DNA of 64,000 nucleotides from Amycolatopsis methanolica 239 (lineage in GTDB: Bacteria; Actinomycetota; Actinomycetes; Mycobacteriales; Pseudonocardiaceae). Below are positions 741 through 19,252 of this stretch, piece by piece. The notes beneath the pieces are model-generated. The model made no database searches. It saw only the letters and a list, made by a program, of their open reading frames with translations, and had not been told where the DNA came from. Position 1 is the first letter of the stretch. Each line of letters starts with the position of its first letter. The position numbers and the translations under genes are program-made. The stretch is taken from the NCBI RefSeq assembly GCF_000739085.1, contig NZ_CP009110.1:3844001-3908000 (forward strand), read 5' to 3'.

Positions 741-1622
741 TCAGGAATCGGTCCAGGGCCGCAGTTTCTCCGGGTTGCGCACCGCCCAGATGCGGCTCAC
801 ACGGTCGCCGTCGACCTCGAACGCCAGCACCGCCTCGGTGCGGTCGGCGTGCCGGACCACCAGGCCGGGCTGGCCGTTGACCGGGTGTTCCAGCAGGCCG
901 AGGGCGGGGGCCCGCTCGACGAGCGCGGCCAGGTAGCGCGCGATCTCCGCCGCGCCTTCGATCGGGTGCGGCGCGGCGCTGACGAGACCGCCGCCGTCGG
1001 CGACCACCGTCGCACCGGGGTCGAGCAGCCCGACCAGGGCCCGGATGTCCCGGTTTTCCCACGCCCGCTTGAAGTTCCGGACGACCTCCGCGCGCTGCTC
1101 GGCGGAGGTGGCGGGCACCCGCGCGTCGCGGACGCGGCGCCGCGCCGACGTGGCCGGCTGACGGCACGCCGCGGGTGTGCGGCCGACGATCTCGGCGACC
1201 TCGGCGAACGGGTAGCCGAACACGTCGTGCAGCACGAACGCTACCCGCTCGGCCGGGGTCATCGCGTCGAGCACCACGAGGAAGGCCATGCTCACCGATT
1301 CGTCGAGCGTGACGCGCTCGGCCGGGTCGGCGGCGGACCCGCGGTCGGGCAGCGGCTCCGGGATCCACTCGCCGACGTACCGCTCGCGGCGGGCGCGGGC
1401 CGAGCCGAGCAGGTCGAGGCAGATCCGGCTGGCCACCGTCGTCAGCCACGCGCCCGGGGAGGCGATCGCCTCCTGCTGTGCGCGGGACAGCGAGTACCAC
1501 CGGGCGTAGGTCTCCTGCACGACGTCCTCGGCGTCGGCCAGGGTGCCGAGCAGCCGGTAGGCGAGGTTGATCAGCTGGCGCCGCTCGCTGAAGACGGCGC
1601 TCAGGCCCGGATCGGTGGTCAT
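741..1622 (-). CDS. sigJ: ECF sigma factor, SigJ/ECF41 type with SnoaL-like C-terminal domain
   Basis: A 293-residue RNA polymerase sigma factor. Region 2 lies at about residues 15-80 (RQLINLAYRLLGTLADAEDVVQETY) and region 4 at about 110-160 (MTPAERVAFVLHDVFGYPFAEVAEIVGRT). A SnoaL/NTF2-like extension follows from about 175 to the end (NFKRAWENRDIRALVGLLDPGA). In ECF41 proteins this tail replaces an anti-sigma factor and tunes activity in cis. In region 4 the family's usual 'CRQLASRAR' reads 'CRQPATSAR', placing a proline in the recognition helix, which is odd. The ATG at 1622 starts at MTTDPGL; upstream in-frame codons do not resemble the family. A TGTCACA word at 1691-1697 on this strand matches the -35 element known for ECF41 promoters, but no matching -10 was found. 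It is divergent from a broken GlxA regulator. Confidence 0.86.
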   Translation of the reverse strand: MTTDPGLSAVFSERRQLINLAYRLLGTLADAEDVVQETYARWYSLSRAQQEAIASPGAWLTTVASRICLDLLGSARARRERYVGEWIPEPLPDRGSAADPAERVTLDESVSMAFLVVLDAMTPAERVAFVLHDVFGYPFAEVAEIVGRTPAACRQPATSARRRVRDARVPATSAEQRAEVVRNFKRAWENRDIRALVGLLDPGATVVADGGGLVSAAPHPIEGAAEIARYLAALVERAPALGLLEHPVNGQPGLVVRHADRTEAVLAFEVDGDRVSRIWAVRNPEKLRPWTDS

Positions 1623-1716
1623 GGCGGCTCCCTCGGTGATGTGCCCCCTGTTCGACGAGACAGCGCCCTCGATTGTGAGGCGTGTCCGGATGTGACAGAA
1701 CACCGTCATTGCCGCC

Positions 1717-2599
1717 ATGGCCGGCCGCCGGTCACGACCTCCTCGACGTCACCGGCCGGACGGCGGCGTCGTGGCCACGTCGGCGGGGGTGCGGCTGGTG
1801 ACGGATCTGGCGTTCGCCGACGTGGACGGCTCGCTGGACATGCTCCTGGTGCCCGGCGCGGTCGACCTGCACCCGGGCGGGCCGGTCGCGCGGATCGACC
1901 AGGAGGTGGTGGCCTGGGTGAAGGCGACCGCGCCGCAGGCCCGCCGGGTCGCCTCGGTGTGTGTGGGAGCGCACGTGGTGGCCGCGGCCGGGCTGCTGGA
2001 CGGCAAGACCGCCACCACCCACTGGTCGACCGCCGCGCAGCTGGCCGCCGATCACCCGGCGGTGCGGGTGGACCCCGACCCGATCTTCGTGCGCAGCGGG
2101 AACGTGTGGACCGGCGCCGGGATCAGCGCCTGCATGGACCTCGCGCTGGCGCTGGTGGCCGAGGACCTGGGCGAGGAGGTCGCCCTGGACGTGGCGCGCC
2201 AGCTGGTCATGTACCTCAAGCGCCAGGGCGGGCAGAGCCAGTTCTCGGTCCCGCTGAGCTCGCCACCGGCCACCCGCCGCGACATCGACGAGCTGCGGAT
2301 GTTCATCGCCGACCACCTCGACGGCGACCTGTCCACAGCGGCGCTCGCCGCCCGGATGTGCCTGAGCGAGCGGCACTTCGCCCGGGTCTTCCAGCAGGAG
2401 ACCGGCCATCCGCCTGCCGCCTACGTCGAGGCCGCGCGGGTGGAGGCCGCGCGCCGTCTGCTGGAGGGCACCGACGAGCCGCTGGACCGGATCGCCGGCG
2501 TGCGGGCTCGGCTCCGCGGAGACCCTGCACCGGGCGATGCGCAAGCAGGTCGGCACCACGCCCGCGGCCTACCGCCGCCGGTTCCGCACCACTGTCTGA
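1717..2599 (+). pseudogene. GlxA-like regulator (DJ-1/PfpI plus AraC), two lesions
   Basis: The frame encodes most of a DJ-1/PfpI-like domain (SVCVGAHVVAAAGLLDGKTATTHW) joined to an AraC-type DNA-binding domain (LSERHFARVFQQETG), as in GlxA-family activators. There are two breaks. At the start, the family motif 'HDLLDVTG' is in another frame and is fused straight to 'PDGGVVATSAG', so roughly 20-30 residues are missing. Near base 2497 the frame changes again, and the AraC tail (ACGLGSAETLHRAMRKQVG) runs to the TGA at 2597-2599. The second lesion fits loss of one C and one G from a CCCGGG run. Beyond 2599 the first frame stays open into the next gene, giving a false fusion. The likely original target, the downstream hydrolase, follows by position only. 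Confidence 0.7.
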
Positions 2600-18175: not shown

Positions 18176-18670
18176 TCAACCCGCGTACGTGCCGTCGCCG
18201 GTCTCCGGGGCGCCCTTGGGCAGCACCTTGACCTGCGGGGCCTTCGTGGTGGTCTTCGACGGCGCGGGCGGCCGCGTGGACGTGCCCGGCCGCGGCCTCG
18301 TCGTGGTCGTCGCCGCCGGGCCGGTGATCGTGAAGGTCGCGGTCGCCGTGCCGTTTCCGGCCGGCCCGCCGCTGCCGGAGCACGTGAAGGTGGCCTGGTA
18401 GCTGCCGGGTTTCGCCCCGGCCTTCCCGGTGCCGGTGTAGCCGTCCAGAACACGGATGAGCGTGACCGGGGCGGCGAGCCCGGGCGAGGTCACCGTGCCG
18501 GCGTTGCCCGAGCAGTACGCGCTGAACTCGAGCGTCTGCCCCGGCGACACCGAGGACGGGGACACGCCGAGCTTCGGCGGCGGCGCGGTCGCGCCGGCGG
18601 CCGGCGCGGCGAGCGCCCCGGCCGCGAAGGCGAGCAGCCCGGCGCTGGCGAGAATTTTCTTGTGCTGCAT
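18176..18670 (-). CDS. secreted protein with sortase-like C-terminal motif
   Basis: A 164-residue exported protein. It has a signal peptide at 1-27 (MQHKKILASAGLLAFAAGAL, cut near AGA/TAP). An Ig-like domain at about 30-115 contains two cysteines (AYCSGN, FTCSGS). A Thr/Pro/Arg/Lys linker ([19 protein letters not shown]) follows, and the end is LPKGAPETGDGTYAG. The PETG-like motif resembles a sorting signal, yet no hydrophobic segment follows it and the chain ends eight residues later. The ATG follows GGGAGGAAACC and lies 19 bases behind the sortase gene, so the pair is an operon. It is probably the partner or substrate of that sortase. Its function on the cell surface is unknown. Confidence 0.82.
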   Translation of the reverse strand: MQHKKILASAGLLAFAAGALAAPAAGATAPPPKLGVSPSSVSPGQTLEFSAYCSGNAGTVTSPGLAAPVTLIRVLDGYTGTGKAGAKPGSYQATFTCSGSGGPAGNGTATATFTITGPAATTTTRPRPGTSTRPPAPSKTTTKAPQVKVLPKGAPETGDGTYAG

Positions 18671-18688
18671 GGTTTCCTCCCAGAATGG

Positions 18689-19252
18689 TCACCGCGGTGC
18701 GGCGTAGACAATGATGTTGTCGCGGTAGCTGTGCGCGGCCCGGTCGAAGCCCCCGCCGCAGGTGATCAGCCGCAGCTCGGGCCCGGCGGTGTCGCCGTAG
18801 ACCGCCTCGGTGGGGAACTCGTCCTTGTCGATCTGCTCCACGCGGGTCACCGCGAACGTGACGGTCGAACCGTCCTTTCGCGACACCAGCACCTCGTCCC
18901 CCGGCACGAGTTCCTTGAGGCGGTGGAAGATCCCCGGCCGTCCGCCGCCGTCGACGTGCCCGAGGACCACCGCGGGCCCCGGCTCCCCCGGCGCCGGACC
19001 GAGCCGGTACCACCCGGCCCGCATCGGCTGGGTCACCGGCGGCACCTCGATGGTCTCGTCCGCGTTGAGGCCCAGCGGGACGAGCGTCGAGCGCGCGCCG
19101 ATCCGCGGAATGTCGAGCGCTTCCGGTTCCGCCGGCGCCACGACCTCCGACTCCGGTGCGGACTGCACCGGCGCAGGCACAGGCGCAGGCTGCGTGGCGC
19201 ACCCGCCCAGCACGAGCAGGGCCAAGGCGAGCAGGAACCGCACGGCGACCAT
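18689..19252 (-). CDS. class F-like sortase, lipoprotein-type N-terminus
   Basis: A 187-residue cell-surface transpeptidase-like protein. It starts with a hydrophobic leader ending LVLGGC (lipobox, Cys near residue 18), followed by a Pro/Ala/Glu-rich linker. The sortase domain begins near DIPRIGARSTLV. The catalytic histidine is in VVLGHVDGGGRPGIFHRL, the cysteine in LRLITCGGGFD, and the arginine in AHSYRDNIIVY. All three are present and in order, fitting class F sortases of actinobacteria. The ATG at 19252 is chosen because it opens the leader. The next gene downstream encodes a protein with a PETG-like tail. The lipobox is notable because most sortases use a membrane-spanning anchor. Confidence 0.85.
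   Translation of the reverse strand: MVAVRFLLALALLVLGGCATQPAPVPAPVQSAPESEVVAPAEPEALDIPRIGARSTLVPLGLNADETIEVPPVTQPMRAGWYRLGPAPGEPGPAVVLGHVDGGGRPGIFHRLKELVPGDEVLVSRKDGSTVTFAVTRVEQIDKDEFPTEAVYGDTAGPELRLITCGGGFDRAAHSYRDNIIVYAAPR

Follow-up and report, generated by a model that had tools for sequence, protein, structure and literature searches.

What holds a sorting substrate in place for its sortase when the substrate has no membrane anchor? This question is raised by a two-gene operon on the minus strand of the window, a stretch of 64,000 nucleotides from Amycolatopsis methanolica 239, whose 7.24 Mb genome is a single contig. The operon contains first a class F sortase gene and then a gene for a secreted, anchorless protein, the putative substrate. 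The anchorless feature is real and conserved, and its working as an alternative mode of sorting is plausible.

The class F sortase and its operon partner

The two genes are separated by 18 nt, and GGGAGG precedes the substrate ATG. A gene for a PucR-type regulator lies upstream of the operon and a convergent amidohydrolase gene downstream, 16 nt from the substrate stop. Sigma-70-type promoters and terminators were searched for at the locus and none were found, which is uninformative here. The features of both genes are collected in Table 1.

Table 1. Features of the sortase-substrate operon, in positions of the window
Feature	Position	Strand	Basis
Class F sortase, operon gene 1, 187 aa	18689..19252	-	NF033748, model, solved-sortase matches
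Lipobox-like LGGC of sortase, Cys18	19199..19210	-	Sequence; loose pattern in genus loci
His99 codon of sortase	18956..18958	-	Kept in 101/103 alignment rows
Catalytic Cys165 codon of sortase	18758..18760	-	103/103 rows
Arg161 codon of sortase	18770..18772	-	103/103 rows; on Cys-bearing strand in model
Arg177-Asn179 codons of sortase	18716-18724	-	Sortase alignment
Secreted anchorless substrate, 164 aa + stop	18176..18670	-	Open reading frame
Signal peptide of substrate, residues 1-27	18590..18670	-	A-G-A before T28, by eye
Ig/PKD-like beta sandwich of substrate, residues ~28-117	18320..18589	-	Model + structure match
Pro/Thr/Lys-rich disordered linker of substrate, residues 118-145	18236..18319	-	pLDDT, pN~pS
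Anchorless sorting-like tail QVKVLPKGAPETGDGTYAG, residues 146-164	18179..18235	-	Profile, survey, selection
Predicted cut in substrate tail, T157/G158	18200/18199	-	Sequence

The product of the first gene scores 206.9 bits against NF033748 (class F), for which the curated cut-off is 166, and its structure model (pLDDT 89.7) is matched by solved class A, C and E sortases at Z 15-16. In sequence searches of solved structures, the window sortase alone gave no match at E 0.01 and the sortase profile gave one, a sortase D. Alignment, model and structure matches place a sortase fold with His and Cys in this protein. The complete His/Cys/Arg site described in the initial annotation was confirmed for His99 and Cys165, but not for its arginine: Arg177, downstream of the catalytic Cys, is kept in just 36 of 103 sortase rows, and Asn179 (101/103 rows) occupies the position that, in an alignment by eye, corresponds to the class A arginine. 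With Asn at the usual arginine position, activity of the window sortase is not assured. Arg161 is invariant, lies four residues N-terminal of the catalytic Cys and is found in the model on strand 158-170, which also bears Cys165; the active-site arginine of class F sortases may have moved between strands. An Arg at the Arg161 position was read by pattern in 73 of 80 loci surveyed across the class, and in the same genome the class E sortase has QRLIVHA at the usual arginine place.

The N-terminal segment of the sortase ends in LVLGGC, and the lipobox first noted for this protein was thus recovered as a lipobox-like sequence. Its proposed significance, a lipid-anchored sortase that accounts for the anchorless substrate, was not sustained: a loose pattern detects lipobox-like starts in 50 of the 51 class F loci of the genus, including all 14 in which the sortase stands beside a normally anchored partner. 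The lipobox was therefore rejected as a mark of the anchorless mode, since within the genus it is found equally often with anchored partners. The same loose pattern finds such starts in 29 of the 80 class loci, as against 50 of 51 in the genus, and three f33 loci (L139, L149 and L151) encode class F sortases with a hydrophobic N-terminal stretch and no lipobox.

The second gene encodes a protein that ends in LPKGAPETGDGTYAG directly before the stop. An A-x-A ahead of TAPPP is conserved among 12 aligned relatives, and the best named matches are in Amycolatopsis. Pfam and NCBIfam searches of the substrate gave no family at E 1. In its structure model, residues 31 to 120 have pLDDT values of 73-93 by blocks of ten, and the values fall under 50 from residue 121; the best solved match to the Ig-like domain has Z 9.3 and rmsd 2.1 over 76 residues. 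Five antibody-type chains (E 0.63-1), returned when solved structures were searched with the substrate sequence, were treated as noise. The absence of a hydrophobic stretch and of a basic tail was borne out, since only GDGTYAG follows T157, and the mature protein has no membrane stop at either end. The sequence LPKGAPETG stands where an LPXTG-type pentapeptide would be expected.

Pfam searches of seven other partners identified Excalibur in the anchored partner of L008 and two weak matches, both under cut-off, in that of L009; none were found in the remaining five. Partners at L030, L024 and L033 lack the Ig domain and keep the signal peptide, linker and tail.

The tail motif and its association with class F sortases

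Tails beside class F sortases have in common a motif of approximately P-x-G-[GA]-x-x-T-G-x-G. The ending was initially read as PETG; the C-terminal TG stands, but the motif is neither PETG nor LPXTG, being longer, with a Pro six residues ahead of TG that is conserved in most tails. Relatives of the substrate within the genus have near-identical tails and different linkers, and the T, the G and the second glycine after them are invariant in 20 aligned tails. A profile of 22 positions (A1), built from 20 tails, detected four tails at E<=0.01 in the A. methanolica 239 genome, one beside each of its four class F sortases. Because the four tails and four sortases match one to one, the pairing is more than chance. 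Three of these tails are anchorless, the two outside the window ending in ...VVPRGAPQTGDGSLAP and ...FAPKAGVETGAGGTARF; the fourth is normally anchored, with ...KPVGGVDTGGG... followed by a helix and then RRRAGR. One core is common to the anchored form (QVKVKPVGGVDTGGG, helix, RRRAGR) and the anchorless QVKVLPKGAPETGDGTYAG.

The tails fall into two forms. Among 100 distinct tails in the fetched loci, 64 stop 2-13 residues past TGxG and 36 continue into a membrane helix and basic end, with none intermediate; the count covers tails over 13 bits among the final 110 residues of each open frame (of 102 rows, the 2 that scored 13 bits or less were excluded) and keeps related copies separate where their ends differ. 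The 64 anchorless tails come from 20 genus codes of the family. Profile A1 was made from anchorless, often sortase-linked tails and is biased, and neither the 64/36 split nor the 60/57 split given below represents natural frequencies.

The initial annotation had named, as the finding that would refute it, a genome survey in which the tail is not associated with sortases. The outcome was the opposite, because tail and class F sortase proved to be linked. Of 80 tails found across 60 family genomes, 63 have such a sortase on the same strand no more than 1.4 kb away, where random placement would give about 0.03 (all 80 tail rows and 107 of 146 sortase rows were entered, the 39 weakest, under 120 bits, being excluded). 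For the other 17 tails there is no neighbouring class F sortase; some of them therefore work in trans or serve another purpose. Of the 107 sortases, 48 have no linked tail at that threshold. By genome, in a hand count whose genomes are not independent, so that its p-value is no more than indicative, tails occur in 34 of 44 with a sortase of at least 160 bits and in none of the 16 that lack one; with the limit at the curated 166 bits, the figures are 32 of 42 and 2 of 18. The two exceptions are G031 and G194, with linked tails and sortases of 163-165 bits, and the 160-bit limit was chosen after these were noticed just below the curated cut-off.

Within the genus, 19 genomes yielded 51 loci: the broken copy L105 and 50 sortases above the cut-off. 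Each has a same-strand neighbour that carries the core motif. A regular expression assigned 31 of these as anchorless and 14 as anchored; the other six were read as anchorless by eye, among them L065 (G012), whose partner ends in PSGPVAAGDGSLATN, with AG replacing TG. The same expression was applied to the 80 class loci, which were chosen by hand (76 over the cut-off, 4 below). An anchored tail was found in 41, three of them beside short noise-like matches; 35 had no tail by the pattern used, and four had short matches only, of which two (L185 and L203) were accepted as anchorless. The noise of the expression can be judged from opposite-strand tails: the genus has 4 of these to 46 same-strand tails, the class 11 to 54.

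A search at the level of the order, in which at most 29 candidates were scored per genome, so that absence outside the family is soft, found anchorless tails in three genomes of another family code (f16, genus g180). The anchorless form is mainly, not only, a trait of the family of the window. Of 41 named loci related to the substrate, 29 have a sortase in the fetched flanks; anchorless tails in the named loci occur in Amycolatopsis, Lentzea, Crossiella, Saccharothrix and Sciscionella, and the single Actinosynnema locus has anchored tails only.

Several loci depart from simple pairing. Anchorless tails with no sortase in the fetched flanks were found at L225, L026, L219, L229 and named loci such as L325 and L327, and some sortase-distant anchorless tails end in MAWDW or in GDGSL plus one residue; such proteins are possible substrates in trans. 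In Lentzea, L330, L332, L336 and L349 have one or two sortases with one to three anchorless partners, which end in KPKGAPxTGGG plus about GTA.

History of the tail and selection on its core

A tree was constructed from 118 sortases with linked tails only, of which 60 have anchorless partners, 57 anchored and one both. On this tree the partner form changes at least 11 times, against about 40 with shuffled labels, and 4-5 of the changes are forced by well-supported (starred) branches; a quick method was used, and 52 of the 115 inner branches are under 80 support. Residues that differ between sortases of anchorless and anchored partners may merely follow the tree and were left unused. The membrane anchor was probably lost from an anchored ancestor, because outside the family the anchored form is the prevailing one.

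For the window-type group of 14 rows, among them the G017 remnant described below and a pair of tails from a single genome, the 15-codon core gave a pN of 0.091 and a pS of 0.404, and the 20 codons before it gave 0.635 and 0.588. The other three partner groups gave pN/pS values of 0.126/0.359, 0.035/0.082 and 0.097/0.284 for the core and 0.278/0.456, 0.475/0.476 and 0.521/0.520 just upstream. Across the four groups the core ratio is about 0.23-0.43 versus about 0.6-1.1 upstream; these are sums over related row pairs with an ungapped linker, which inflates the upstream values, and they give a direction rather than a test. In the L007 group the upstream stretch is also constrained (0.278 against 0.456), the direction agreeing with the others, and few changes lie behind the values of the L009 group. 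This crude count shows apparent purifying selection on the tail core and none in the stretch preceding it in the window-type group.

Two loci record unusual events. At L021, in the relative G017, a remnant of the operon has lost both the catalytic region of the sortase and the beginning of the partner; it retains an inverted fragment of the sortase start, and the tail is still readable. At L230 (G183, positions 877-1950, minus strand), a single 358-codon open frame spans both a partner and a class F sortase: an Excalibur-like stretch (recognised by eye) is followed by the core QVGVVPEGAVDTGDG, a further eight residues, a hydrophobic segment that ends in LLGGC and finally the sortase. This is either a natural fusion or an assembly error, G183 being a draft of 300 contigs, 86% complete; the locus was counted among the 63 linked tails. 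If it is no assembly error, the membrane segment of the sortase itself occupies the position of the substrate anchor.

A candidate mechanism, its rivals and known systems

We consider it rather probable that the operon encodes a dedicated sortase-substrate pair in which the anchor has been lost and the tail is recognised, cut and the protein attached to the wall. The substrate would be exported and its signal peptide removed, leaving a mature form with a folded Ig-like domain, a Pro/Thr-rich linker and a tail of about 18 residues at the end. Held by a lipid anchor at the outside of the membrane, the class F sortase would recognise the tail core, QVxVxPxGAPxTGDG, cut between Thr and Gly with release of the short soluble peptide GDGTYAG, and transfer the protein to a cell-wall amino group, in lipid II or a peptidoglycan peptide. 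Judged from the sequences, recognition of the tail by the class F sortase without a membrane stop is most likely; cleavage at T-G and transfer to the wall would follow from sortase chemistry. The membrane stop may be replaced by an enzyme close to the site of export, by the greater length of the recognised stretch or by the wall mesh holding the protein back. An anchorless tail beside a class F sortase is probably a real alternative way of surface display. Pilin-like polymerisation through the tail lysine was also considered and dropped, the lysine position varying among tails.

An unlikely alternative is that the sortase cuts the tail but leaves the substrate unattached to the wall, serving as a processing protease or linking the substrate to a different protein or a small amine, with a released or polymeric product. 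The missing membrane stop and the cleavable signal peptide would suit release, and the motif is unlike LPXTG; on the other hand, the Pro/Thr-rich linker ahead of the tail is a usual wall-spanning design, and anchored partners with the same core carry a normal membrane helix and arginines. Also in favour of such processing, the streptococcal protein AbpA was found not only in the supernatant but also in the wall fraction, where it runs as a ladder, according to the portion of the source available (PMC4974636).

It seems doubtful that production and display are uncoupled, so that free substrate is fixed to the wall of any hypha or cell that bears the lipid-anchored sortase. Such uncoupling, if true, would provide a shared, self-applied surface coat, and the C-terminal peptides set free could serve as reporters of the reaction. 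Quite improbable is a role of the tail as a docking or inhibitory segment, by which an uncut small protein would bind, regulate or chaperone the sortase. The strict pairing in the genus and the partners that keep the tail without a folded domain would fit, but the T, the G and the second glycine are invariant and common to anchored forms that resemble ordinary substrates, and tails exist on proteins distant from sortases. That the tail is a relic of an anchored ancestor on a merely secreted protein agrees with the probable loss of the anchor and the prevalence of anchored forms outside the family; against the constraint on the core relative to the upstream stretch, and the number and spread of distinct anchorless tails, it is very improbable. 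An anchor hidden by read-through, a frameshift or a wrong gene end is hardly credible: the fused frame of L230 indicates that a sortase start can follow a tail in frame at that locus, but sequence beyond the stop gives no hydrophobic stretch in the window, where read-through was rejected, and the stop lies almost against the convergent gene.

The dedicated-pair reading has a precedent. Anchor-free sorting as such is not new, because wall anchoring has been shown for AbpA/SrtB of oral streptococci: as stated in the available part of the source, AbpA, with LPKTS plus AVK and no hydrophobic stretch, is anchored to the wall by the neighbouring SrtB and requires its sorting motif for this (PMC4974636). 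As far as that part describes it, the two systems are alike in that a sortase adjoins a secreted protein with few residues after the motif and no hydrophobic stretch. They differ in that AbpA has LPKTS and a sortase B neighbour, neither of which is found at the window locus, where a class F sortase adjoins a P-x-G-A-P-x-T-G-D-G core, and in that the class F form extends over many actinobacterial genera and several partner types. Membrane integration has been called a prerequisite for the covalent wall attachment of four identified sortase substrates (PMC10924467, in the part available), to which an anchorless class F system would be an exception. No class F system of the anchor-free kind, using a motif of its own and occurring with several types of partner in many genera, was found in the open-access literature, within the text accessible.

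With the anchored partners of other class F sortases, such as that of L008 in the same genome, the window substrate shares the sortase family and core motif; the L008 partner differs in having a transmembrane helix, an arginine tail and Excalibur domains, and in preceding its sortase, whereas the window substrate follows its own. Classical LPXTG (class A) substrates resemble it in signal peptide, wall-spanning type of linker and C-terminal T-G, but it has no LPXTG pentapeptide, membrane helix or basic tail.

The first study of a class F sortase was reportedly made in Propionibacterium acnes. Class F sortases occur widely among actinobacteria, and what they do physiologically is described as unknown; in Actinoplanes missouriensis, deletion of all four class F sortases produced no observed phenotypic change, and neighbours of two of the genes (AMIS_11010 and AMIS_36440, next to srtF1 and srtF4), with membrane helices and no recognised pentapeptide, were suggested as possible substrates (PMC13251363, in the sections available). 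The core motif described here could be what that study missed. The paired motif provides a concrete candidate recognition sequence and a ready partner list for class F sortases, and the interchange of anchored and anchorless forms beside one enzyme family is a natural test of the need for an anchor and of its replacement. A sortase that accepts soluble tails would also interest protein-ligation work. At L289 (G431), L315, L320 and L323, a sortase stands beside both anchored and anchorless partners, which offers a natural test of whether a single enzyme accepts the two kinds.
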